Origin: an uncultured Porphyromonadaceae bacterium
Lineage (GTDB): Bacteria > Bacteroidota > Bacteroidia > Bacteroidales > Muribaculaceae
DNA length: 64,000 nt
Direction of reading: 5' to 3'
NCBI GenBank assembly: GCA_946414395.1
Contig: CAMKOE010000003.1
Span: 46,347 to 110,346, forward strand
Shown: positions 36,160 through 63,386 of the stretch, piece by piece
How the letters are laid out: every line of letters begins with the position of its first letter
Position numbering within the stretch: position 1 is the first letter of the stretch
Position numbers and translations under genes: made by a program
Notes under the pieces: generated by a model
Seen by the model: the letters and a program-made list of their open reading frames with translations, nothing else
Told to the model about the DNA's origin: nothing
The model's database searches: none

Positions 36160-37863
36160 TCAAAATTCGCCTCTCATGTACGCTTCAAGGAATTCCTTTA
36201 AAGACATCTCAAGCCCCATCTTTTTCCTAATAACAATATTAATCCTGTTATATACAGTTTTTACATTTGTGTAATTCATGCACAACTTAATGATTTGAGG
36301 GGGCACATTTGCACATAGTAAACAGAACAATTCCCGCTCCTTTATTGTAAGATCGGGATACTTTTTCTCGATGAAAGAAATGATACCATCATATTCTCCG
36401 TTTACCGAGAGTTTTATCTTTTCCCAAAAATCATCGGACAATTTAATATCCATCGCCTGATAATCCTCACTAAGTCCCATAATGACACTGGACAAGGGGA
36501 TAATAGTTCTCTTTCTCTTGTTCGCTTGGTCTTTTGACTTGAACTTGAGGTTATCATACAATTCCATTAAGGCATCAATCCTATGTCCAAATAGTTCAGA
36601 AACAGATCCTTGTAATTGCTCCTTTTCTTTTAATTCAGCAACAGTTGCAGCCAAGATTCGCTCCATCTCTTTTCTTTCTTCAATACTACTCTTGACTGCT
36701 TGCTTCTGACGAACGATAAGCCAAACCAGGATAAATGACAAGGCCAACACGACAGACAAAACCAATATCAAAAGATGGTTTCTACGATTGACAACAGACT
36801 GTTGTTGCTTGGCTTTGAGTCTTTGGAAATCAGATTCGGTGTCTTTCAAGCGTCCGATTTGGCTGCTAGATCTGATTTGGATCTCTTTCTCTCGCGATTT
36901 CAGCAAGTTTGAATGATAGGCCAATGCATCGTTCTCAGCCTGAGAAATTTCGGCTTCAAGTTGGAGCCTGTTCATGCTATCCACGGCATCCTTGGGCAAG
37001 GGGGTATTTTTAAATACATACTTTGCCGAATCCAGCATTCCCATTCTGATATAAGTCCAAGCCGCATAATAAAAGTACTGGTTTTCACAGCAGTAACCGC
37101 GACCATGACGGAAAACATCCATGGCCAACTCATTGGCTCTTTTATGATTATGATAGCCATAATAATATAATCCGGCCAGTTTGGACTTGTAGGTGTATTG
37201 CATTGAGGGCTTGAACTGCTGGGCCAACTTGATGGCATAAGTCAAATAGTACTCGGTGGAGTCGGGATGTTTCACGCCACATACGGCTCCCAAGCCACCA
37301 TAGCAGGATATGAGATAAATGGTGTCGTTAAGCGCCGTGAAATAACTGATGGCCTCTTTATATTTATTTATGGCAACGCTGTCTTGAGACACTTGATCCT
37401 TATATAACGACGCTATCCTGAGTTTGGCGTAACCCAGGTTGAAGTAGTCGTCGGGGGCGGCGGTGGCCTCCGCGGTCTTGTAGTGGAACATCGCGCTGTC
37501 CACCTGGCCCAGTTCGCCCATGACAGCGCCCTTGTAGAGGTAGCAGCGGGTGAGTTTCTCGCGCTCGCCGTCGTGGGCACGGTAATAGGCCAGCGCGCGG
37601 TTGATGGCGCTGTCGCTGGTGGCCGCGATGTAGCAGCGGTAGCGCGCCTGGGTCAGCAGCAGGTCACGGTAGGCCCGGTCGCCGTCGGTCGTGAGGCTGC
37701 CCGCGTCGATGGCCTCGACCAGCGCCAAGGCGCTGTCCGGGTCGTCGAGCATCAGGCTGTCGGCCGCCGCGAGCCGCCCATCATAGCGGGACGTGCCTCC
37801 ACAACCCGTGACCATCGCCACGAGCCCCGCCGTCAACACTATGAGCCACAACAGCCGCTTCAT
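36160..37863 (-). CDS. TPR-containing membrane regulator with C-terminal HTH
   Basis: Lipoprotein-like N-terminus, TPRs, TM HLLILVLSVVLALSFILVWLIV, C-terminal LuxR-like LTIKERELFCLLCANVPPQIIKLCMNYTNVKTVYNRINIVIRKKMGL. Confidence 0.85.
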   Translation of the reverse strand: MKRLLWLIVLTAGLVAMVTGCGGTSRYDGRLAAADSLMLDDPDSALALVEAIDAGSLTTDGDRAYRDLLLTQARYRCYIAATSDSAINRALAYYRAHDGEREKLTRCYLYKGAVMGELGQVDSAMFHYKTAEATAAPDDYFNLGYAKLRIASLYKDQVSQDSVAINKYKEAISYFTALNDTIYLISCYGGLGAVCGVKHPDSTEYYLTYAIKLAQQFKPSMQYTYKSKLAGLYYYGYHNHKRANELAMDVFRHGRGYCCENQYFYYAAWTYIRMGMLDSAKYVFKNTPLPKDAVDSMNRLQLEAEISQAENDALAYHSNLLKSREKEIQIRSSSQIGRLKDTESDFQRLKAKQQQSVVNRRNHLLILVLSVVLALSFILVWLIVRQKQAVKSSIEERKEMERILAATVAELKEKEQLQGSVSELFGHRIDALMELYDNLKFKSKDQANKRKRTIIPLSSVIMGLSEDYQAMDIKLSDDFWEKIKLSVNGEYDGIISFIEKKYPDLTIKERELFCLLCANVPPQIIKLCMNYTNVKTVYNRINIVIRKKMGLEMSLKEFLEAYMRGEF

Positions 37864-37995
37864 CGCCCACAAAGGTAACACTTTTTCCCGACAGCAACAT
37901 GCACCCGCCCCCAGCCTGATCCTCATTCTCACGCAAAGTCGCGAAAACGCGAAGTCTTTTATATTGCTTGCGAGCCCTTGGGAGCAACCAAGATA

Positions 37996-43824: not shown

Positions 43825-45702
43825 ATGAGAAGCAACTATGATGTCATAGTGGTTGGGGCCGGTCATGCCGGTTGCGAGGCAGCATGTGCTGCGGCCCGCC
43901 TGGGTTCAACGACCCTGCTCATCACTATAGACATGAACAAGATTGCCCAGATGAGTTGCAACCCTGCCGTGGGCGGCATCGCCAAGGGGCAGATCGTCCG
44001 CGAAATTGACGCCCTGGGCGGACAGATGGGCATTGTCACCGACCGCAGCAGCATCCAGTTCAGGATGCTCAACCGCAGCAAGGGGCCCGCCATGTGGAGC
44101 CCGCGCTCACAGAGCGACCGCCAGCAGTTCATCCTGGAGTGGAGACAGATACTCGAGAACACGCCCAACCTGTTCATGTGGCAGGATTCGGTCGTTGAAT
44201 TCATCATCGAGGGTGGGGTAGTGAAGGGTGTCAAGACAGCCCTGGGCATCCAATTAGAGGCAAAGGCTGTCGTTCTCACCGCCGGCACGTTCCTCAACGG
44301 ACTGATGCATGTGGGGACCGTTAAGACACCCGGCGGACGCGTGTCGGAGCCTCCCGCAAGAGGCATCACCGAGCAGTTATCGTCGCTAGGATTCACCGTG
44401 GGCCGCATGAAGACCGGCACACCGCCGCGCCTCGACGAGCGCAGCATCGACTTCTCGCAATGCATCAAGCAGGAAGGGGAGAGCGATTTCCACCATTTTT
44501 CTTTCTTGCCTGGCATCAAGAGCCAACTGCCGCAACGTCCATGCTGGATCGTCCACACCAACGAGCAAGTGCATCAAGTGTTGCGTGAAGGCCTGCCCCA
44601 ATCACCGCTCTATAACGGGCAAATCACCAGCATCGGGCCTCGCTACTGCCCCAGTATCGAGACCAAGATTGTGACATTTGCCGACAAGACATCCCACCAA
44701 CTGTTCATCGAGCCCGAGGGCGCGAACACCCACGAGATGTACCTCAACGGTTTCTCGTCGTCGCTGCCGTGGGAAGTCCAGATCGAGGCCCTGCGCCACA
44801 TCCCCGCACTGAGGGACGTGCACGCCTTCAGGCCCGGATATGCCATCGAGTATGACTTCTTTGACCCCACCCAGTTGACCCACACTCTGGAGTCAAAACT
44901 CGTCAAGAACCTGTTCCTCGCCGGTCAGGTCAATGGCACGACAGGATATGAGGAAGCAGCAGGACAGGGGCTCATCGCAGGCATCAACGCCCACCAAAAC
45001 GTGTCAGGCGGCGAACCGTTCACCCTGGCGCGCAACGAGGCCTACATCGGCGTCCTCATCGACGACCTTGTGACCTGTGGAGTGGACGAACCATACCGCA
45101 TGTTCACATCGCGAGCCGAGCACCGCATCCTGCTGCGGCAGGACGATGCCGACATGAGACTCACCGAGAAAGGCTACAGACTGGGGCTGGCCAGCAGAGA
45201 GCGCTATGAACTCATGGTGTCCAAACGCCAACAGATTGACAACCTCAGCGCCTTCTGCCGCGACTATACCGTCAAGGCCGCGCTCATCAACCCCACGCTC
45301 CAAGCCCTAGGCATGCAGCCCTTGACACAGGGTCAGCGGCTGCACGACCTGCTGCTGCGCCCCCAACTCAACATGGCCATTCTCGCCGACGCGCTGCCCG
45401 ACTTGCAGGCGCACCTCGACTCCATCGAGGCCGCACGCCGCGAGGAAATCATCGAGGCCGCCGAGATAGCCATCAAGTACCGTGGCTATATCGAGCGAGA
45501 GACCCTCATCGCCGAGCGCGTCGCACGGCTCGACAACGTGACGCTCAAGGGCAAATTTGACTACAGCCAGATACACCAGATATCCACCGAGGCACGACAG
45601 AAGTTACAGGCCATCGACCCCGAAACAGTAGGGCAGGCTTCACGCATCCCTGGCGTGTCTCCCAGCGACATCAACATCCTGCTCGTCCTGCTGGGCAGAT
45701 AA
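43825..45702 (+). CDS. mnmG: tRNA uridine-5-carboxymethylaminomethyl(34) synthesis enzyme MnmG
   Basis: DVIVVGAGHAGCEAACAAARLG, MSCNPAVGGIAKGQIVREIDALGG, FLAGQVNGTTGYEEAAGQGLIAGINA, RAEHRILLRQDDADMRLTEKG. Confidence 0.98.
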   Translation: MRSNYDVIVVGAGHAGCEAACAAARLGSTTLLITIDMNKIAQMSCNPAVGGIAKGQIVREIDALGGQMGIVTDRSSIQFRMLNRSKGPAMWSPRSQSDRQQFILEWRQILENTPNLFMWQDSVVEFIIEGGVVKGVKTALGIQLEAKAVVLTAGTFLNGLMHVGTVKTPGGRVSEPPARGITEQLSSLGFTVGRMKTGTPPRLDERSIDFSQCIKQEGESDFHHFSFLPGIKSQLPQRPCWIVHTNEQVHQVLREGLPQSPLYNGQITSIGPRYCPSIETKIVTFADKTSHQLFIEPEGANTHEMYLNGFSSSLPWEVQIEALRHIPALRDVHAFRPGYAIEYDFFDPTQLTHTLESKLVKNLFLAGQVNGTTGYEEAAGQGLIAGINAHQNVSGGEPFTLARNEAYIGVLIDDLVTCGVDEPYRMFTSRAEHRILLRQDDADMRLTEKGYRLGLASRERYELMVSKRQQIDNLSAFCRDYTVKAALINPTLQALGMQPLTQGQRLHDLLLRPQLNMAILADALPDLQAHLDSIEAARREEIIEAAEIAIKYRGYIERETLIAERVARLDNVTLKGKFDYSQIHQISTEARQKLQAIDPETVGQASRIPGVSPSDINILLVLLGR

Positions 45703-45746
45703 TTTGTTCCACGTGAAACATTTTAAACATAAAATATTGATTTACA

Positions 45747-46280
45747 ATGAATAAGCAAGAATTAGAGAAAGTAAAAAGTGTGGTGCGCAACGTGCCAGAC
45801 TTTCCCGTGCCAGGCATCCAGTTCAAGGACCTGACCACTGCATTCAAGGACCCCGAGGCACTACAGATTATGACCCGAGCCATGACCGACCTCTATAAGG
45901 ACAAGGGCATCACCCGCGTGGTGGGCATCGAGGCCCGCGGCTTCATCGGCGGCGCCATCCTGGCCACACAGTTGAACGCCGGTTTCGTCCCCCTGCGCAA
46001 GCCCGGCAAACTCCCTGCCGAAGTCATCCAGAAGTCCTACAGCAAGGAATATGGAACCGACACCATCGAGGTTCACAAGGACGCCATCACGCCCGACGAC
46101 GTTGTGGTCATCCATGACGACCTGCTTGCAACGGGCGGAACCATGCTGGCTGCCTACGAGTTGGTGAAGTCGATGAACCCCAAGAAGATCTACATCAACT
46201 TCATCTGCGACCTTGAAGTCCTGCACGGCCGCGAAGTCTTCCCCGACGACGTCGAAGTCACCTCACTGTTCACGTTCTAA
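45747..46280 (+). CDS. apt: Adenine phosphoribosyltransferase
   Basis: FPVPGIQFKDLTTAFKD, GIEARGFIGGAILA, VVVIHDDLLATGGTMLAAYELV. Confidence 0.97.
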   Translation: MNKQELEKVKSVVRNVPDFPVPGIQFKDLTTAFKDPEALQIMTRAMTDLYKDKGITRVVGIEARGFIGGAILATQLNAGFVPLRKPGKLPAEVIQKSYSKEYGTDTIEVHKDAITPDDVVVIHDDLLATGGTMLAAYELVKSMNPKKIYINFICDLEVLHGREVFPDDVEVTSLFTF

Positions 46281-46301
46281 CAAGGCAATGCCGACCGAAA
46301 G

Positions 46302-48140
46302 ATGAATGACAAACTGAAACTCAAACTGTCGCTGCTCCCCGATGAACCGGGCGTTTACCGCTACCGTAATCGGGAGGGCACCATCATCTACGTCGGCAAG
46401 GCCAAGAACCTCAAGCGACGCGTCAACTCCTACTTCAACCGTGAGCACTCCTCGCTGCGCACCACCATGCTCGTGCGCAATATCGCCGACATGGAGTACA
46501 CCGTGGTCAACACCGAGGAGGAGGCCCTCGACCTCGAGAACGCACTCATCAAGGAGTACCAGCCGCGTTACAACGTCCTGCTCAAGGACGACAAGAGTTA
46601 TCCCTGGATATGCGTCTCGGGCGAACTCTATCCTCGTGTCTATATCACCCGCGATGCCCGCGCCAAGGGCGACCGCTACTACGGTCCCTATCCCAAAAGC
46701 GAAGTCGCCAAGGTGCTTATCGACACCATGCGCCAGATTTACCCCCTGCGCACATGCAGGCTACATGTTTCACGTGAAACAATCGAGCAAGACAAGCACC
46801 GCCTGTGCCTGCAATACCACATCCACCGCTGTGAGGGATGCTGCAAGGGGCTCGTCTCGCCCGAGCGATACGGACAATACATCAGCGAGATACGCCAGAT
46901 ACTCAACGGCGACACCCACGTGCTCATGGATGTGCTCATGCAGCAGATGCAGGAACTCGCCAGCGAGTTGCGCTTTGAGGAAGCCGAGGTCATCAAGCGG
47001 CGATACAAACTGCTGGAGCACGTGCGCCGGCGCTCGGTCATCGTCAGCCCAGGCATACACAACATCGACGTGTTCGGCCTGCTGCGCGACGACGACGCGG
47101 CGTGGGTCAACTTCATGCACGTGCGGGGTGGGGCAGTGGTGCAGTCCCTGACGCTGGAGTACCGCCTCTCGACGCGTGACGAAACCGATGCCGAGATCAT
47201 GTCGATGGCCATCGCCGAGGTCCACCAGCGCTTTGCCGAGACCTACAAGCGCGACCGCGTCACCGAGGCCATGGTCAACGTCATCCCCGATGTCGAGTTC
47301 ACAGGACTCGCGTGCTCGATCCCGCAGCGCGGCGACAAGAAGAAACTGCTCGATATCGCCGTCAAGAATGCCCTGCAGCACCGCACCGACCGCCTGCGCA
47401 TGATGGAGAAACTCAACCCCGAGCAACGCACCACGCGCACGCTGACGACCATGCAGCGCGACCTCAGGCTCAACGTGCTTCCACGCCACATCGAGTGCTT
47501 TGACAACAGCAACATCAGCGGTTCAAGTCCTGTGGCCTCATGCGTCGTGTTCCGCAATGCCAAGCCCTCCAAGAAGGAGTACCGCCACTTCAACATCAAG
47601 ACCGTGGAGGGTGCCGACGACTTCGCCTCGATGCGTGAAGTTGTCACACGGCGCTACAGCCGCCTAGTGCAGGAGGGCGAGGAACTTCCCCAACTACTCA
47701 TCGTGGACGGTGGCAAGGGGCAGGTGACGTCGGCCATCGAGGCCCTGGACGCCATCGGCCTGCAGGGCCAGATAGCCGTTGTGGGCATCGCCAAGCGCCT
47801 CAACGAGGTCTATTTCCCGGGTGACAGCCTGCCGCTGTTCATCGACAAGAACAGTGAGACGCTACACGTCATCCAGCGCCTGCGCGACGAGTCCCACCGC
47901 TTTGCCATCACCTTCCACCGCAAGCAGCGCAGCAAGGGGCAAGTGCACAGCGCCCTGGACGACATTCCCGGCATCGGACCCAAGACCCGCACAACGCTGC
48001 TCAAGCACTTCAAGTCGCTCAAGCGCATCCGCGAGGCCAGCGAGCAGGACCTGGCCACCGTCATCGGCCCAGCCAAGGCCCAGCAACTCATCCAGGCCCT
48101 ACATCAAGCCGACGCGCCTGCTGGCAGCGACAACGCCTGA
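46302..48140 (+). CDS. uvrC: Excinuclease ABC subunit C
   Basis: GIY-YIG domain (PGVYRYRNREGTIIYVGKAKNLKRRVNSYF), CFDNSNISGSSPVAS, C-terminal HhH (LDDIPGIGPKTRTTLLKHFKSLKRI). Confidence 0.98.
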   Translation: MNDKLKLKLSLLPDEPGVYRYRNREGTIIYVGKAKNLKRRVNSYFNREHSSLRTTMLVRNIADMEYTVVNTEEEALDLENALIKEYQPRYNVLLKDDKSYPWICVSGELYPRVYITRDARAKGDRYYGPYPKSEVAKVLIDTMRQIYPLRTCRLHVSRETIEQDKHRLCLQYHIHRCEGCCKGLVSPERYGQYISEIRQILNGDTHVLMDVLMQQMQELASELRFEEAEVIKRRYKLLEHVRRRSVIVSPGIHNIDVFGLLRDDDAAWVNFMHVRGGAVVQSLTLEYRLSTRDETDAEIMSMAIAEVHQRFAETYKRDRVTEAMVNVIPDVEFTGLACSIPQRGDKKKLLDIAVKNALQHRTDRLRMMEKLNPEQRTTRTLTTMQRDLRLNVLPRHIECFDNSNISGSSPVASCVVFRNAKPSKKEYRHFNIKTVEGADDFASMREVVTRRYSRLVQEGEELPQLLIVDGGKGQVTSAIEALDAIGLQGQIAVVGIAKRLNEVYFPGDSLPLFIDKNSETLHVIQRLRDESHRFAITFHRKQRSKGQVHSALDDIPGIGPKTRTTLLKHFKSLKRIREASEQDLATVIGPAKAQQLIQALHQADAPAGSDNA

Positions 48141-53786: not shown

Positions 53787-54599
53787 ATGGCTAAAATCAA
53801 AGTACAGAACAAAGAGATTACAATCCTGAAGCAGAACGAGAAAGACTACATTTCTCTTACAGATATGGCCAACGCCAAAGAAAATGAAAGCCGCGCCGCT
53901 GATATCATAAAGAACTGGATGAGAAATCGTTACACGATTGAATTTCTCGGAACTTGGGAAATGATTCATAACCCCAATTTTAAAGTGGTCGAATTTGACC
54001 ACTTTAGAAGACAAGCCGGTCTACCAAGTTTTGTATTGAGTGCCAGTGAATGGATTGAAAAGACTAATGCCATTGGTATAATCGTAAAGAAAGGGCGATA
54101 TGGTGGTACATATGCATTCAAAGACATTGCTTTTGAATTTGGCACAGCAATTAGTGTAACGTTCAAGTTATATCTCATTGAAGAATTCCAGCGCCTCAAG
54201 GAAGAAGAGCAGAAACTTATCGGATGGACAGCAAAGCGCGAACTCTCAAAAATCAACTATCGCATTCACACTGATGCCATCAAGGCCCATCTGATTCCCC
54301 TTGAAATCACGTCGGTTCAAGCGAGCATTATTTATGCCGAAGAGGCCGATGTGCTCAATGTTGCATTGTTTGGTATGACCGCTAGACAGTGGCGTAATGC
54401 TAATCCTGAATTGAAGGGGAACCTACGAGACTATGCCACCATCAACGAACTGATATGTCTCTCTAATATGGAAAACATCAATGCAATGCTCATTAATGAA
54501 GGGATGCCTCAAAGCGAACGCTTGATAAAACTCAATCAAATTGCCATTCAACAGATGCAGGTACTTGAAGGCATTAGGGGACGAAATTTATTGAAATAA
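53787..54599 (+). CDS. KilA-N domain protein
   Basis: YISLTDMANAKENESRAADIIKNWMRNRYTIEFLGTWEMIHNPNFKVVEFDHFRRQAGLPSFVLSASEWIEKTNAIGI...GRYGGTYAFKDIAFEFG. Confidence 0.88.
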   Translation: MAKIKVQNKEITILKQNEKDYISLTDMANAKENESRAADIIKNWMRNRYTIEFLGTWEMIHNPNFKVVEFDHFRRQAGLPSFVLSASEWIEKTNAIGIIVKKGRYGGTYAFKDIAFEFGTAISVTFKLYLIEEFQRLKEEEQKLIGWTAKRELSKINYRIHTDAIKAHLIPLEITSVQASIIYAEEADVLNVALFGMTARQWRNANPELKGNLRDYATINELICLSNMENINAMLINEGMPQSERLIKLNQIAIQQMQVLEGIRGRNLLK

Positions 54600-54669: not shown

Positions 54670-56622
54670 ATGCTTAAAAGATTGATTCATAGCAATATCG
54701 GGGCCGCAGTGCTCAATATGCTGGTGGCCTATCTCGTGTGGATGCTCTCTAGAGTGGCCTTCTTTGCCGAGAACTGGTCCACCTTTGCCCCCTACATGTC
54801 GTGGTCGCTGCTGTGGAGCATGGTGCGCGGCGCTCTGGTGTTTGACACATCGGCGCTGCTCTATGTCAACAGCCTCTACCTCGTGCTCATGCTGCTGCCC
54901 CTTCACATCAAGGAACGTGCGGGCTTCCACAAGGGCCTCCGGTGGCTCTTTGTGGCAAGCAATGCCATCGGACTGGCCATGAACCTGATGGACGCCGTCT
55001 ATTTCCAGTACACAGGCCGCCGCTCGACGGTAACGGTGTTCACCGAGTTTGCCGCCGAGGGCAACATCACGTCCATCATCCTGACCGAATTTCTACGCCA
55101 CTGGTACCTGGTGCTGGCCTTCATCGCGCTGGTGTTCATCCTGTGGCGGTGCTACACCAGACCTCGTCTTGAGGTATATCGCTTCGGTTCCCACTACTAT
55201 ATCTCCCAGGCCATAGCCCTACTCGTGATGATACCGCTGGCCATTGTGGGCATCCGCGGCAGTGTCACGGCAGGCACGAGGCCCATCACCATCAGCAACG
55301 CCAACCAGTTTGTCAACCGCCCTGTAGAGTCCTCGGTGGTGCTCAACACGCCATTCTCGATGATACGCAGCATCGGCAAGAAAGCCTTTGTCACACCCGA
55401 TTACATGCCTGCAGGGCAGATGGAGGCCATTTATAGCCCCGTACACGGCCATCCCGTGACCGATGAGTTGAGCCACAAGGGCAAGAACGTGGTCATCCTC
55501 ATTGTCGAGAGCATGGGCAAGGAGTACATCGGGGCGCTGAACCGCGACCTGGACGGTGGCCAGTACAGGGGGTACATGCCCTTTGTGGACAGCCTGGTGG
55601 AGAAATCGCTGACTTTCAAGTACAGTTATGCCAACGGTCGCATCAGCATGGACGCCATGCCATCGATACTGTCGGGCCTGCCCATGATGGTGGAATCTAT
55701 TTTCCTCACCCCGGCGTCGCTCAACGACGTGGACGGCATCTCGTCGATACTGGGACGCGAGGGCTACGGCACAGCCTTCTTCCACGGCGGCCACAACATC
55801 TCGATGGGCTTCAGCGCCTATGCCCACAGCATCGGCTACAAGGACTACTACGGGCTTGACGAGTACTGCCAGTCACCCAAATATGGCGGCATGGACGACT
55901 TTGACGGCAAATGGGCCATCTGGGACGAGCCTTTCCTGCAGTTCACCCTTGACAACATCGGGCAGATGAGCCAGCCCTTCCTGGCCACCGTGTTCACGGC
56001 CTCGTCCCATCACCCCTATAACGTGCCCGAGCAATACCGCGACTCGCTCAAGGACGAGGGCGGACGTCCCATCCACAAGTGTGTGCGCTACACCGACCTG
56101 GCCCTGCGGCGCTTCTTTGAGCGCGCCAGCCATGAGCCGTGGTACCAGAACACCGTGTTTGTCCTCGTGGCCGACCACACCAACCAGAACAGCCACGACG
56201 TGTACAAGACCGATCTGGGCCTGTACAGCATCCCCATCATTTTCTTCACCCCCGACGGCTCCATCAAGCCCGCAATGCGCGATGACGTCATCGCCCAGCA
56301 GACCGACATCACGCCGACGCTGCTGCACCTGCTGGGCTACGAACGGCCCTATCTGGCCTTCGGCAACGACCTGCTGGGAGAGGATCCGGGGCAGACGTGG
56401 GCCTTCAACTACAATGCCGGCATCTACCAACTGATCAAGGGTGACCTGATGCTGCAGTTCGACGGCGAGAAGACCACCGCACTGTACCGCTACAAGACCG
56501 ACCGACTGCTCAAGGACAACCTGGTGGGCCAGTTGCCCCAGCAGCAGGAGATGGAGCAGTTCGTCAAGGCCCTGATACAGCAATACATGTCGCGCATGAA
56601 CGAGAACCGCCTCAAGCCCTGA
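54670..56622 (+). CDS. LTA synthase family sulfatase-fold membrane protein
   Basis: Five N-terminal TMs; VVILIVESMGKEYIGALN, DAMPSILSGLP, FFHGGHNISMGF, FVLVADHTNQN. Confidence 0.93.
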   Translation: MLKRLIHSNIGAAVLNMLVAYLVWMLSRVAFFAENWSTFAPYMSWSLLWSMVRGALVFDTSALLYVNSLYLVLMLLPLHIKERAGFHKGLRWLFVASNAIGLAMNLMDAVYFQYTGRRSTVTVFTEFAAEGNITSIILTEFLRHWYLVLAFIALVFILWRCYTRPRLEVYRFGSHYYISQAIALLVMIPLAIVGIRGSVTAGTRPITISNANQFVNRPVESSVVLNTPFSMIRSIGKKAFVTPDYMPAGQMEAIYSPVHGHPVTDELSHKGKNVVILIVESMGKEYIGALNRDLDGGQYRGYMPFVDSLVEKSLTFKYSYANGRISMDAMPSILSGLPMMVESIFLTPASLNDVDGISSILGREGYGTAFFHGGHNISMGFSAYAHSIGYKDYYGLDEYCQSPKYGGMDDFDGKWAIWDEPFLQFTLDNIGQMSQPFLATVFTASSHHPYNVPEQYRDSLKDEGGRPIHKCVRYTDLALRRFFERASHEPWYQNTVFVLVADHTNQNSHDVYKTDLGLYSIPIIFFTPDGSIKPAMRDDVIAQQTDITPTLLHLLGYERPYLAFGNDLLGEDPGQTWAFNYNAGIYQLIKGDLMLQFDGEKTTALYRYKTDRLLKDNLVGQLPQQQEMEQFVKALIQQYMSRMNENRLKP

Positions 56623-56750: not shown

Positions 56751-57641
56751 TTACTCGATCACGAACTGATAGAGCGTGCAGCGGATGGTACTGCTGCCAC
56801 AGTTGCCGGCGGCCATCTGGCGATAGGCGCGGCCGATGTACCAGGTCCAGTAGTCGGTGAAGTCACCCATCGAGCCGTTGGACTTGGTGTACTGCAACTT
56901 GCCCAGGTTGGCACCCGTCTGAGCATCAATGCGATAGAGGCAAACCTCGCGGCGCTGGCTACCGCTACTGTTATAGACGGTCTTGCGGATGTTGCAGGTG
57001 AACCACGGTGTGCACTCGCCGAAGGCAACAGGCTGGCCCACGGGCTCATACTCCTTGGTATCCAGGTTCTGAACACCATACTGCACCTTGTCGGTGATGG
57101 GCGTGCCATCGGCCTCATAGAGCAGGTTGATGAACTGGACGCGGCACAGCGAGTCGGTGTCCAGGGCGGGATTGAACTCGGGAGCGGGATTCATCTCGAT
57201 GGGTATGGGATCCTTGTCAAGGTCGTGAACAAAGATGACATAGCGCTTGCCAGCCTCGACATTCACGTTCTTGTCATAGACCACAGGGTACTCATAGATG
57301 GGCTCGCCAGTGGGCGTTTCACCCACCTTAACCCTGCTGTGGAGTTTCACGTTGACCGAGCCGGCATCAACGACATAGAAGCGGTTGGTGCCACCCGAGG
57401 GTACCGTGTTGAACGTGGCCAGGAATGTGGCGCCATCATTGCCGTACTCAATACCATTGAGGTCGATAAAGTACATATAATTGGCTGCGCCAGCGGTCAC
57501 GGGAGCATAGTAGCCCACCTGAACATAGGCCTTGGACGACTCGTCAACAGGCTCGGCCATGTAGGAGACATCCTTCTTCTCGCAGGAGCCCATTGTGACT
57601 GCCACCAGCAGCAATAATGCTATATATTTGAAATATTTCAT
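56751..57641 (-). CDS. DUF4397-like surface lipoprotein
   Basis: Lipobox TMGSC; repeated YVQVGYYAPVTAGAANYMYFIDLNG / YVIFVHDLDKDP Ig-like pattern; co-directional behind susD. Confidence 0.65.
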   Translation of the reverse strand: MKYFKYIALLLLVAVTMGSCEKKDVSYMAEPVDESSKAYVQVGYYAPVTAGAANYMYFIDLNGIEYGNDGATFLATFNTVPSGGTNRFYVVDAGSVNVKLHSRVKVGETPTGEPIYEYPVVYDKNVNVEAGKRYVIFVHDLDKDPIPIEMNPAPEFNPALDTDSLCRVQFINLLYEADGTPITDKVQYGVQNLDTKEYEPVGQPVAFGECTPWFTCNIRKTVYNSSGSQRREVCLYRIDAQTGANLGKLQYTKSNGSMGDFTDYWTWYIGRAYRQMAAGNCGSSTIRCTLYQFVIE

Positions 57642-57676
57642 AATCATTGATTTTTATTGGATCATTAAATAATATA

Positions 57677-59563
57677 TCATAATGAAGTGGGCATGTCACC
57701 GGGATAGCAGAACCACATGATCGAGCACTGATAGTCAAGCGCGTCGCCCGGTATGGGCAACAGAGCCTGCAGGTTGTTGAGGTTCCACATGTACTCGGAG
57801 TTGTAACGCGGGCGCAGGCGGAAGCAAGGTGAACCGTTGTTGTCCTCGTTGTAGGCACTCTTGCGGCCCTGCACCTGGGCGGGTTGCAGCCAGAATCCCT
57901 TGTAAACCTTGGTGGGGTCGGTGTCAAGTTTCTGGTTGAGGGTCGTCTTGTCCCAGCCGTTGAGGTACTTGGGATAATCGCCCGTGTAGTCGATGTCATA
58001 GAAGTTCTTGCGCAGGTCAACCCAGGCCTCGATAGCGCCCCAGGGATAGAGGGCAAGATACTTCTGCATCATGATGTGGGACAGTGAGAAGTCACTCATG
58101 GGCAGACCGGCCACATAGGGGCCGTTGAGGTACTCGGCAGCCAGCGAGTTGAAGGTGGCCTTGGTCACCTTGTCGCCCTGGTGGTAATTGCCGTTGACGG
58201 TGCCTGCCACGATGTAGGAAGAGGTGAAGTCCATATCGGCCCTCAGAGCCTTCTTCCAGGTCTCAAAGGCGTCGCTCTTGCTGCCATACTTGAACTGAAC
58301 CTCGGCCAGGTCAAACAGCAACTCGCTGTAGGTTGCCATGATGTAGGGGGCGTCATTGTGATAAATCCAGTGGCCATCGCCGTCATAGGTCGTGTTGGAC
58401 ACGGCATTGCGACCCCAGAACGAGGGAGCGGTGCCGATGGGACCCGTGGCACCGGTGAAGCCCGAGCCCACATAGTAGAGGCTGCGCAGGACTTCCCTGT
58501 TGGTGATCGTGGCGTAGTTATTGCTGTCGGTGGTCGCCAGTTTCACGAGTCGGCGCGGGTCAAAGTGGCCGGCGTCGGGCAGGGTGTCGCTGGTGATCTG
58601 CTTGTCGAGCAACTGGTAGGGATAGTGCTGACGGTTGATGGCATTGGTATCCTCGGTCTGGATGTAGTTGCCCTGCTCGTCATACTTGCGGATCGTTCCC
58701 GTGAACAACTGCACGGCATAGTCGTGCTGGAAATAACTGTAACTCAAGTTGCCGCGATAGGGACCCCAGAAGTTGTTATAGCCGCTCTCGGCAGCATCGG
58801 CGCCACCGCCGGCAATCTTGAGGGTCGCGTTGTCATCGTTGCTGGCAAAGGCCTTGCCCACGGCAGTGATGAACTCGTCATAGTACTTCTCCTTGAAGTC
58901 ACGCTTGTTGGTCAACGAGACCAGGTTGCGTGCAATCACCGCATAGCAGAACTTCACCCACTTGTCCTTGTCGCCACCGTAGATGTAATCGTTGTTGATG
59001 ATGCGGTTGCCATAGGCCGAATTATCCTCCCTGGTCAGGTAGTCGATAGCCTGATAGGCCCACTCGCGCACCTGGGGATAGATGTCGGACTGATAGTCAT
59101 ACTCATGCGAGAGGCGACCGGCCTCATAGGCCTGCTTCATGGGGGCCTCACCGTTGACCTTGGTCAACAGGTCCCATGAGAAAGCCTTCATGGCCAGACC
59201 GATGCCGGCAAGCGTCCAGTTCTCGGCCTCAACGCTCTGGTTGATCATGTTCTCCAGGTTCATGCCCTGGTTCCAGTAAACCATGCGCCATGCCTCGCCA
59301 CCGGCATCACTACCCTTGGAGTAATAGTGGTTGGCAAATGACGTGTAACTCGATGTACCCATCATCTGGGTGAGCGGCGCGATGGCACGCAGGTCCCAGT
59401 AGATGCCCTGATAAGCCTGCTGGATACCGGCCAGGTAGAGGTAACCCTCCACATAGTCGGGCGCGTCGGTGTTCTTGTTCACATCCAGATAGTCGTCACA
59501 GGATGTCAGCCCCAACGTCACGCAAGCCAGCGCACACAGTATAATTGATTTCAATGATTTCAT
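57677..59563 (-). CDS. SusD/RagB-family nutrient-binding lipoprotein
   Basis: Lipobox GLTSC, DDYLDVNKNTDAPDYVEGYLYLAGIQQAYQGIYWDLRAIAPLTQMMG; pairs with the upstream susC. Confidence 0.93.
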   Translation of the reverse strand: MKSLKSIILCALACVTLGLTSCDDYLDVNKNTDAPDYVEGYLYLAGIQQAYQGIYWDLRAIAPLTQMMGTSSYTSFANHYYSKGSDAGGEAWRMVYWNQGMNLENMINQSVEAENWTLAGIGLAMKAFSWDLLTKVNGEAPMKQAYEAGRLSHEYDYQSDIYPQVREWAYQAIDYLTREDNSAYGNRIINNDYIYGGDKDKWVKFCYAVIARNLVSLTNKRDFKEKYYDEFITAVGKAFASNDDNATLKIAGGGADAAESGYNNFWGPYRGNLSYSYFQHDYAVQLFTGTIRKYDEQGNYIQTEDTNAINRQHYPYQLLDKQITSDTLPDAGHFDPRRLVKLATTDSNNYATITNREVLRSLYYVGSGFTGATGPIGTAPSFWGRNAVSNTTYDGDGHWIYHNDAPYIMATYSELLFDLAEVQFKYGSKSDAFETWKKALRADMDFTSSYIVAGTVNGNYHQGDKVTKATFNSLAAEYLNGPYVAGLPMSDFSLSHIMMQKYLALYPWGAIEAWVDLRKNFYDIDYTGDYPKYLNGWDKTTLNQKLDTDPTKVYKGFWLQPAQVQGRKSAYNEDNNGSPCFRLRPRYNSEYMWNLNNLQALLPIPGDALDYQCSIMWFCYPGDMPTSL

Positions 59564-59572
59564 AATTTATCT

Positions 59573-59679
59573 AAGTTTTTAGTTTTAAGTTTTTAGTTTT
59601 AAGTAGGATTTGTATCGCCTAGAAACGTTTGTCAAGAGGTAATATTACTTACAACTTAAAACTTACAACTTAAAACTCA
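59573..59679. repeat. Imperfect AT-rich inverted repeat between susC and susD
   Basis: aagtttttagttttaagtttttagttttaagta (left) versus acttacaacttaaaacttacaacttaaaactcaa (right), about 40-nt spacer. Confidence 0.7.
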
Positions 59680-59687
59680 ATTAATCC

Positions 59688-62600
59688 TTACTTCACGATG
59701 ATTTCACAGATAGAAACGCGGTTCCAACTCAGTTCGTCAAACATGTTGCTGATACCCTGGCCACCGGCATTGATGCGGTTGGCGGCGATACCGTACTTGT
59801 TGACGAGCATGTCCTTAACGCTAGCGGCACGGCCGTTAGCCAACTTGATGTTATTGTCCTGGTTGCCCTCGGGCGAAGCATAACCCTTGATCTCGCAGGT
59901 TGCCTCGGGATGGCTCTTCAGGTAGGCTGCCACGCGCTCAACGTTGGCACGCTGGTCGGCAGCGATACCGGTCTTGTTGACGGGGAAGTGAACGAGCACG
60001 TTCATGTACTTGGCGCTGTTGTCAACCACCTTGGGGGCGGCATTCTTGGCAGCGTTCAGGTCGTTGCGGCAGTTGGCCAGGGCGCGGTTGGCGGCGTCAA
60101 GGTCGCTCTGCATCTGGGCCAGGCGGCTGTTGTAGTCATTCTGTGCATTGGCCAGTTGAGCACGCAGGTCATTGATCTGGTCATTGAGCGCGGTCGTGTT
60201 CTGGTAGGCGGGCTTGGGAGCCTCGTCGTTGGAGCCGAAGGTCACACTCAGGCCCACCGAGTAGGTGCGGGGGCTGGGCAGCGACCAGCAGTCATAGCCT
60301 TCACCACCGGTACCACCGGCAGCGGCCGACATGGTGTTACCGGCAACGTCGGTTCCCGTGTAATTGGTGATGGTGAACAGGTCGTTGGCCGACGCATAGA
60401 CGCTCGCATTCTGGATGGTGCCGCGGGTCACGTTGCGCAGCCAGTTCTGCGGCAAGATGTAGGCCAAGCGCAGTTCCTGGCAACGGATGTAGTTGACCTT
60501 GTGCTGGATCCAGTCCTCATCACCACCGGTGTAGGTGTACTGACCATACTCGCCCAGGTTGACGGCGATGGTGTTCTTGGTGGGATTGTCGGTATCCTGC
60601 TTGCCGTCGTAGAGCACGCCGTCAAAGACCACGAAGCCCTTCTCGCGCATGTCAACCGAGAGCCAGTTCAGACCAGTGCCCAGCATGTCGCGCATGGTAG
60701 CGTTGACAACGTCGGCATGGTAACGGCCCTGGAACATGGCGCTCAAGCGCCAGTTCTTGACGCTCAAGGCGGTGGTGAAACCGAAGCGCAGTTTAGGCTC
60801 ACGGTTACCGATGATGCTCCAGTCGCTGGAAACGCGGGGCAGACCCGTGGTGGGGTTGATCAGAATCTGACCAGCCTCGTTGCGCTCATAGGCCTGACCG
60901 GTCACGGTGCTGATGGGGTGACCCTTCATCACACCGTTGCGGATGCCACCCGAGTTCCAGGTGTAAGCGTTATAGAACTCCTTGAGGTTATCGGGCAGGT
61001 AAACGACCTTACTGTTGGTGTGCGACACGTTCACGCCCACATTCCAGCGGACGTCATTGGTGCGCACGACGTCAACGTCGGCGTGACCTTCCCAACCCCA
61101 AGTGTTAAACGTGCCGACGTTCATGTTGTTCAACACAAAGCCGGTTGCATAACTCATGCGGAAGCCGGTCACGATCTGGTCGGCACAGTGGGTGCGGAAC
61201 CAAGTGAAGTCGGCATTGATGCGGTCGTTCCACATGCGGGCCTCAACACCAGCCTCATAGGAGGTGGTCATCTCGGGCTTGAGGCTGCGGTTGGGACCAG
61301 TGTAGCCATACTTGTAACCGCCACCTGTCAGGCCAGTAGGCTCGAGTTCGGGATCGATCGAGAGCACGGGGGCATCCTTACCCACCTGGGCAATAGCGCC
61401 ACGCAGTTTCAAGTAGTTGATGAAGCCGACGCGCTTCATGAAGCCCATCTCGCTCAACACGATTGAGAGTTCACCGGCGGGATAGAAATAGTGGTTATTG
61501 TCCTTGGGCAGGGTCGAGGACCAGTCGTTACGGAAGCGGCCGGTCAAGAAGATCATGTTGTTGTAGCCCAACTCCAACTGGCCCGAAACGGCCTGCACGC
61601 GACGCTTGGTGGAGCGCTTCTTGCTGGTCACGGTGCTCTCGGTACAGTTGTTGATGCTGTAGAAGTCGATCACCTTGAAGTTGTAACCATAGGACGACAG
61701 GCTGGTCACGCCGTTCTCCAACTGGTGGTAACCCACCTGCACGCCCAGCGAGTACTTGTTGTCCTTCCAGGAGTTGTTATAGCCGGCGAGCACGTTGAGC
61801 GTGGGGTCGCTGGTGTTATACTTGGTGATGTGGTAGGTACCGCGGTTGTTGCTGTCGTCAACACTCTGGTTAGCGCTCACATAGTAGGGGTGGGTACCGT
61901 TCTCATAGGATGAGGTGCTCACGTCCCAACCCATCTGCAGGCGCAGGTAGGTGTGGGTGATGGGCGTGAAGTTCAACGAGAAGGCGCTGATGATGCGGTC
62001 GGTCTCGTCGTGCATCAGGTTCTTGTTCAAGCCGAACAGCGGGTTCAGCAGGTCGGTGTCGGTATAGAAGGCGGGATACTTCATGTGGGAACCGTCCTCG
62101 GCCAAGTACTGGCTCATGTCATCGACACTGGGCCAGCGGTAACTGGCGCGCACGGGACCGTTGGTACCACGCATGGCCTTGTCGTTCTTGGCGTTGACAT
62201 ACTGCATGCTACCTTCCATCGACAACCACTTGGTCAACTCGGCACGGCCAGCCAGCGAGAGGTTGGTGCGGGTCAGGTTAGTGGTCTTGATGACACCATC
62301 CTGGTCAAAGTAGGATGCACTGGCGCGGATCGACATCTTCTCGTTACCGGCCTCCAGCGACACGTTGTGGCGGTGCATGAAACCAGTCTGCAGCACGGCT
62401 GCCGTGTTGTCAAAGAAGGGCAGCGAGTGGTCATACAGTGAACCATAGCGGCTCGTGAAGTAGAAGTTGGCGGCACCATAGGCACCATTGATGTACTTGT
62501 CCTGGATCTCGGGCCAGCCATAAGCCTTGGACCACGAAATCTGGTTGCTGTAGGTCACGCGGGCGCGGCCCGAGCGGCCCTTCTTGGTGGTGATGATGAT

Positions 62601-63386
62601 GGCACCGTTTGACGCGTCGCTACCATACAGAGCGGCGGCAGCGGCACCCTTCAGCACGGTCATCGACTCGATGTCCTCGGGGTTGAAGTCGTTACCACGC
62701 GACGAGTAGTCGGTCGTGCGGGGAGTCAGGCCCGTCAAGCCACCGTCGGCGGCTGCCAGACCCGTCGTGGGGTTAAACGAGGTGTTGTTCATGGGAATAC
62801 CATCGATGACATACAGCGGCTGGTTGTTACCGCTCAGCGACGTGGCGCTGCGCAGCACAACAGTCGTCGATGCACCAGGGGCACCACCCGAACTAACGAC
62901 GCTCATACCCGACACACGGCCTTGAAGGGCCGTGATAAAGTCGGTGCGGCCCGACTCGATAATGTCCTGGGCCTTGACATTCTGCACCGAGGAACCCACG
63001 GTGCGGGCAACACGTTTCATACCGAACTCGGCCGTCACCACTACGTCTTGCAGGGTGTTGGCTCCCTCGGCCATGACAACGTTGGCGGCTTGGGACGCGG
63101 GAACTTCCATCGCGTCATAGCCCACAAAGGAGAAGACGAGCGTCTGGTTGGGGTTGGCCTTAATCGAGTAACGGCCATCGATGTCGGTGGTCGTGCCCGT
63201 ATTAGTGCCCTTTACCCTCACATTAACGCCAATCATCGGCTCTCCGTTGGCGTCCTTGACGACGCCCTGAACTCGGTTGCTCTGGGCTGTAGCTGTGAAT
63301 CCCGTGCTGAATTGGCTCGGCGCCAGTCCGGCAGGGGCACCCATGGCTATGGCCAGTGTGCAGAGCAGTGCTAATTGTTTTTTCAT
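59688..63386 (-). CDS. SusC/RagA-family TonB-dependent receptor with C-terminal coiled coil and OmpA-like domain
   Basis: CarboxypepD_reg-like domain (VQGVVKDANGEPMIGVNVRVKGTNTGTTTDIDGRYSI), plug (LQGRVSGMSVVSSGG..., GAAAAALYGSDASNGAIIITTKKG), barrel ending TYSVGLSVTFGSND, then LNDQINDLRAQLANAQNDYNSRLAQMQSDLDAANRALANCRNDL and VHFPVNKTGIAADQRANVERVAAYLKSHPEATCEIKGYASPEGNQDNNIKLANGRAASVKDMLVNKYGI. Confidence 0.92.
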   Translation of the reverse strand: MKKQLALLCTLAIAMGAPAGLAPSQFSTGFTATAQSNRVQGVVKDANGEPMIGVNVRVKGTNTGTTTDIDGRYSIKANPNQTLVFSFVGYDAMEVPASQAANVVMAEGANTLQDVVVTAEFGMKRVARTVGSSVQNVKAQDIIESGRTDFITALQGRVSGMSVVSSGGAPGASTTVVLRSATSLSGNNQPLYVIDGIPMNNTSFNPTTGLAAADGGLTGLTPRTTDYSSRGNDFNPEDIESMTVLKGAAAAALYGSDASNGAIIITTKKGRSGRARVTYSNQISWSKAYGWPEIQDKYINGAYGAANFYFTSRYGSLYDHSLPFFDNTAAVLQTGFMHRHNVSLEAGNEKMSIRASASYFDQDGVIKTTNLTRTNLSLAGRAELTKWLSMEGSMQYVNAKNDKAMRGTNGPVRASYRWPSVDDMSQYLAEDGSHMKYPAFYTDTDLLNPLFGLNKNLMHDETDRIISAFSLNFTPITHTYLRLQMGWDVSTSSYENGTHPYYVSANQSVDDSNNRGTYHITKYNTSDPTLNVLAGYNNSWKDNKYSLGVQVGYHQLENGVTSLSSYGYNFKVIDFYSINNCTESTVTSKKRSTKRRVQAVSGQLELGYNNMIFLTGRFRNDWSSTLPKDNNHYFYPAGELSIVLSEMGFMKRVGFINYLKLRGAIAQVGKDAPVLSIDPELEPTGLTGGGYKYGYTGPNRSLKPEMTTSYEAGVEARMWNDRINADFTWFRTHCADQIVTGFRMSYATGFVLNNMNVGTFNTWGWEGHADVDVVRTNDVRWNVGVNVSHTNSKVVYLPDNLKEFYNAYTWNSGGIRNGVMKGHPISTVTGQAYERNEAGQILINPTTGLPRVSSDWSIIGNREPKLRFGFTTALSVKNWRLSAMFQGRYHADVVNATMRDMLGTGLNWLSVDMREKGFVVFDGVLYDGKQDTDNPTKNTIAVNLGEYGQYTYTGGDEDWIQHKVNYIRCQELRLAYILPQNWLRNVTRGTIQNASVYASANDLFTITNYTGTDVAGNTMSAAAGGTGGEGYDCWSLPSPRTYSVGLSVTFGSNDEAPKPAYQNTTALNDQINDLRAQLANAQNDYNSRLAQMQSDLDAANRALANCRNDLNAAKNAAPKVVDNSAKYMNVLVHFPVNKTGIAADQRANVERVAAYLKSHPEATCEIKGYASPEGNQDNNIKLANGRAASVKDMLVNKYGIAANRINAGGQGISNMFDELSWNRVSICEIIVK

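Follow-up and report, generated by a model that had tools for sequence, protein, structure and literature searches.

The gene at 59688..63386 on the minus strand of the window (the whole 64,000-nt stretch of DNA that was analysed) raises the question of how a SusC-type importer came by the C-terminal part of an OmpA protein, and what this tail may be doing there. The gene encodes a SusC/RagA TonB-dependent transporter of 1232 amino acids that includes a coiled coil and an OmpA_C domain; the ATG at 63386 is the start of the ORF, and the reading frame is open across 59688-63386, with the stop codon within these coordinates.

A complete SusC continued by a stalk and an OmpA_C domain

The profile TIGR04056 (SusC/RagA) matches residues 38-1050 over model positions 2-981 of 981, i.e., in full, with a score of 644 bits versus a cut-off of 368, and the SusC/RagA signature is present. 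From the N-terminus onwards (all coordinates on the minus strand), Pfam assigns a CarboxypepD_reg-like domain (CarbopepD_reg_2, PF13715; residues 39-117, 63036..63272), the TonB receptor plug (PF07715; residues 128-262, 62601..63005) and the TonB_dep_Rec barrel; the limits of the latter (residues 263-1050, 60237..62600) were set using TIGR04056 and the ends of unfused orthologues. The terminal Phe of the last barrel strand is usually (albeit not strictly by definition) the C-terminus of a SusC protein, whereas here the barrel ends in ...RTYSVGLSVTF at F1050 and 182 further residues follow. They include a helical stalk, or coiled coil (residues 1064-1115, 60042..60197), delimited by helix 25-76 of an AlphaFold2 model of the C-terminus and by a 15-row alignment, and an OmpA_C-like domain (residues 1128-1232, 59691..60005), recognised by its fold and by PF00691 at residues 1134-1214 (45.8 bits versus a cut-off of 27.2). 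The small N-terminal barrel of OmpA proteins is absent, the barrel of the fusion being of the SusC type. The initial annotation had described a complete SusC followed by a coiled coil and an OmpA-like domain, and Pfam, TIGR04056 and AlphaFold2 agree with this description.

Structure prediction of the C-terminus, a check proposed at the time, yielded for the last 193 residues (mean pLDDT 77.5) a helix of 52 residues and, behind it, an OmpA_C fold that matches solved peptidoglycan-binding domains: the Foldseek matches are led by those of OprF (5u1h, E 2.5e-11) and A. baumannii OmpA (3td3-3td5) and include PorE (6top). When residues 118-1232 were modelled (mean pLDDT 71.8), the barrel was followed by the helix and then by the OmpA_C domain. 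The best structural match of this model is the SusCD complex BT2261-2264 of B. thetaiotaomicron (5fq6), which is likewise the best PDB match by sequence. The linker after F1050 is modelled with low confidence and, directly behind the barrel, is the least conserved part of the tail in the 15-row alignment.

The transporter gene heads an operon on the minus strand. As expected for the SusC/RagA family, it is adjoined by the gene for a SusD-like partner lipoprotein (628 amino acids; 57677..59563, PF12771). The third gene (56751..57647) specifies a putative surface lipoprotein of 298 amino acids without a Pfam match, and is also kept beside unfused orthologues of the window's transporter. Degradative enzymes were not noticed next to the fusion operons.

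Occurrence of the fusion in part of one genus

SusC-OmpA fusions are present in at least 38 of the 101 genomes of the window's genus, a lower bound counted from the search table, with up to four copies per genome; every genome with a fusion is a draft assembly, in most cases a MAG. Most of the relatives that bear names are MAGs from ruminant guts, classified as Muribaculaceae, Prevotellaceae or Bacteroidales. With a profile of the barrel end plus tail, fusions were retrieved from the window's genus only, both in the family (297 genomes from 30 genera) and in the phylum sample (396 genomes). With the tail as the query in a sample of the order (295 genomes), no fusion emerged from the other 294, the best matches being OmpA proteins of 380-430 amino acids. 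These distribution searches covered samples in which a few best candidates were scored per genome; in the order search, OmpA-containing frames of 800-970 amino acids were left aside. Within the samples searched, proteins with the SusC-OmpA architecture form a family that recurs in part of one genus and nowhere else; that the architecture would be a common architecture is rejected for the 297 family, 295 order and 396 phylum genomes, and its earlier characterisation as unusual is upheld. We found no published SusC-OmpA fusion in the openly accessible literature searched.

The fused SusCs sort into four groups: A, to which the window's protein belongs, B, C and D, the last including a second fusion in the window's own genome (contig C33, a frame of 1235 amino acids). 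Group B adjoins A and has a SusD of its own, while group C is divergent and measures 1280-1310 amino acids. The fused paralogues A-D usually lie within tens of kb of each other on the same contig: in genome G376, they occur on one contig at 34.6 (C), 42.2 (B), 48.4 (A) and 81.2 kb (D). Barrel identity between the groups is 26-33%, and the OmpA domains within one genome are 76-90% identical.

Fused and unfused importers coexist. Two of the 10 SusC matches above cut-off in the window's own genome are fused, as are four of 12 in G310. At locus L104, A (about 74% identity) and B are both unfused, and L107/L108 combine an unfused A (66%) with an unfused C in the same divergent arrangement; within the genus, unfused A orthologues at 68-72% are found in G298 (on a single contig), G367, G350, G371 and G382. 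All unfused A orthologues stop after ...GLSVTF, where the fused versions read on (...GLSVTFG), and in all four groups the join is directly behind the terminal Phe of the barrel. At L138:7995-11246, a B-type SusC without the OmpA domain adjoins a fused C-type gene in the same species; it either lost the module later or never gained it.

The contig of the window ends some 600 bases upstream of the start of the fusion gene, which might raise the suspicion that assembly or sequencing has joined two genes. However, the identical join recurs in 38 genomes and in four paralogues, on contigs as long as 345 kb that stem from independent projects, and this cross-genome comparison refutes the artefact, the likelihood of which we consider negligible. 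The frameshift or assembly join near the barrel end against which the initial annotation had cautioned is ruled out by the C33 fusion and by those in 37 other genomes of the genus. Three fused SusC genes are each split into two overlapping frames (L124:1252-4906 and L140:7995-11710, both of type B, and L147:7947-11688, probably D); these are sequencing errors or broken copies.

Origin and spread of the module

The window's own genome also encodes a standalone OmpA of 420 amino acids (G000:C24), 67% identical to the fusion tail over the coil and the OmpA_C domain. In a phylogeny of the module, every fused module falls in one clade (100/99), the sister of which is formed by the standalone OmpA proteins of the fusion-bearing species and close kin. 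The SusC tree, inferred with a quick method and including long branches, distributes the fused copies over four separate clades with unfused relatives, and its starred branches force at least five state changes. With the SusC tree needing at least five changes and the modules constituting a single clade, the economical reading is that the module was captured once, from the OmpA of the genus itself, and afterwards copied at the DNA level among SusC genes. A single ancient fused SusC that was later duplicated was rejected by the SusC tree, within the limits of its quick method and long branches. In a separate tree of the A clade, fused A forms a single 100/100 clade nested among unfused A, which favours gain over loss for this group.

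Modules have been exchanged between groups as well. Two B-type SusCs (L134:7995-11777 and L096:1345-5142) carry a C-type module, while the C-type protein L063 has an A/B/D-like one. In RUG401, the dS between the OmpA domains of A and B is 0.26, as compared to 0.30 between the B orthologues of two species and 0.40 or more between A orthologues, consistent with a recent module exchange between A and B in that genome. The tract of shared DNA opens close to where the coil begins and, for several pairs, extends 70-200 nt beyond the stop codon; for the window's A and the D gene of the same genome, identity is 84% over 628 nt. We lean, if slightly, towards the view that an OmpA-derived wall anchor has spread as a DNA cassette, through recombination within the genome, onto at least four different nutrient importers of the genus, which would themselves have become tethers between the outer membrane and the wall.

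Sequence comparison and folding identified an AT-rich inverted repeat of ~115 nt between the SusC and SusD genes (about 59564-59690, minus strand), which contains the palindrome GTAATATTAC. It is 87% identical to the sequence after the D fusion of the same genome, and its folding beats 200 out of 200 shuffles (z -3.9). The genome contains scattered partial copies, with 73 matches when both strands of the palindrome are counted, and an Rfam search with the element gave no match. That the inverted repeat served as a vehicle of module spread is not proven because it is missing after some of the fusions.

A putative tether between the outer membrane and the cell wall

TonB-dependent transporters experience a pull from within, and the usual view has them moving freely in the plane of the membrane. 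Both ends of their barrel are periplasmic, and OmpA_C domains bind cell-wall peptides. In Flavobacterium johnsoniae, the protein that anchors the outer membrane to the wall is OmpA; no other outer-membrane components are as abundant as OmpA and a SusCDE complex (PMC12611786). Taken together, the periplasmic barrel ends, the wall binding of OmpA_C domains and the anchoring by F. johnsoniae OmpA imply that the fusion most probably is a wall tether. In the explanation we propose, the SusC importer of a SusC-SusD-lipoprotein operon has gained the stalk and peptidoglycan-binding domain of OmpA after its last barrel strand, the module having been captured once from the OmpA of the genus before at least four SusC paralogues received copies of it as a DNA cassette. 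The barrel would fold normally, with its end in the periplasm, and a helix of ~50 residues (about 75 angstrom if straight) would bring the OmpA_C domain closer to the wall. Non-covalent binding of this domain to the peptide stem would then make the importer an outer-membrane-to-wall tether as well. Possible benefits are immobilised importers, a larger number of wall anchors, retention out of vesicles, and a barrel held in place while TonB pulls. The gene, its architecture and fold, its conservation, the single origin of the module and the multiplicity of its recipients are shown directly, while binding to peptidoglycan, tethering and any benefit to the cell are inferred. We put the probability of this explanation as a whole at roughly 0.7.

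The ligand site lends itself to comparison with PorE, which contacts DAP via Asp576, Asn584 and Arg591 (PMC7192894). The predicted DAP-ligand positions of the fusion, S1171, N1179 and R1186 (59829..59876, minus strand), have the same spacing (8 and 7), and none of the three varies in the 15-row alignment: Asn and Arg have been preserved, but Asp has become Ser in all the aligned fusions. The initial annotation had remarked that the Asp of the GHTD motif is replaced (GYAS) and the downstream Arg kept; this is confirmed, and Asn, the third ligand, is retained as well. Serine also occupies the Asp position in the standalone OmpA of the genus, the GYASPEG motif being common to OmpA and the fusion, and motif scoring of 46 standalone OmpA proteins gave 25 with Ser and 21 with Asp. 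Since Ser was already present in the genus's own OmpA, the Asp-to-Ser change is inherited rather than specific to the fusion. It nevertheless counts against strong wall binding because the D268A variant of A. baumannii OmpA, used as a peptidoglycan-association mutant, lost several phenotypes (PMC6572160).

Does the tail have a function at all? Comparison of A orthologues gave dN/dS ratios of 0.08-0.13 in the barrel, 0.11-0.15 in the coil and 0.11-0.17 in the OmpA domain; on these figures, which may have been depressed by gene conversion, purifying selection acts on the tail. The module could in principle be a passive rider, largely or wholly functionless, that gene conversion has carried from one SusC gene to another, as the paralogues do exchange modules, the A/B dS in RUG401 is at or below the values between orthologues of different species, and the shared tract includes non-coding DNA. 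The low dN/dS, the invariant residues and the retention of the fusion in at least 38 genomes, with few disrupted copies, make such a rider quite improbable.

If the tail is functional, the coiled coil and the OmpA_C domain may instead work by protein–protein contact and no longer bind peptidoglycan strongly, either by holding the two SusCs of a dimer together or by attracting OmpA or an assembly factor. Crystals of SusC proteins contain dimers, the long heptad helix is retained, and the Asp-to-Ser change at the DAP site would fit this alternative too. We deem it unlikely, since that same Ser occurs in the genus's standalone OmpA, a protein that has presumably kept its role as a membrane anchor, the N and R ligands are invariant, and the globular OmpA domain is better conserved between paralogues than the coil. 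The flexible linker behind F1050 would further suit a precursor, the tail of which is cut off to act on its own in the periplasm as an OmpA_C protein. A conserved cleavage motif was not apparent, short of a systematic scan, and the segment right behind the barrel is the very part that is least conserved; hence, we give a precursor very little credence. The wall-tethered transporter is the best-supported reading of the architecture, its peptidoglycan binding being putative.

The components of such a tether are known from other systems. With the SusC/RagA family (TIGR04056; nearest solved member BT2264, 5fq6), the fusion shares the domain order, the signature, a 22-strand-type barrel and the neighbouring SusD, but in known SusCs the chain stops with the last barrel strand, whereas the window's protein adds its stalk and OmpA_C domain there. 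With Bacteroidales OmpA, it shares the barrel–stalk–domain order, but OmpA has a small barrel, while the fusion has the large barrel of a TonB-driven importer. In PorE, from the type IX secretion system, and in Pal, an OmpA_C domain with the same ligand spacing links an outer-membrane machine to peptidoglycan; both are lipoproteins that keep the Asp and are not fused to a transporter barrel. In Rhodospirillum rubrum, porin channels are likewise held to peptidoglycan via a binding domain, that of the separate porin-binding lipoprotein PapS, so channels can be organised in this manner (PMC11369160); in SusC-OmpA, the anchor domain is part of the same chain.

Orthologues of one importer that occur naturally with and without the putative anchor would allow a direct test of whether anchoring alters import, mobility, vesicle loading or envelope stiffness. 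The module also offers a clear example of a single domain that was captured on one occasion and afterwards copied onto several paralogues of ancient divergence, a history seldom so plain in protein-family trees.

Convergent with the SusCD operon, 54670-56622 (plus strand) encodes a sulfatase-domain membrane protein resembling LTA synthase or OpgB. A KilA-N domain protein is encoded at 53787-54599 (plus strand), and at 36160-37932 (minus strand), there is an ORF of 590 amino acids without a Pfam match. A block of mnmG, apt and uvrC lies near the fusion operon both in the window (43825-48140) and in G376 (L072:5708-10105), which suggests that synteny around the A locus is conserved.
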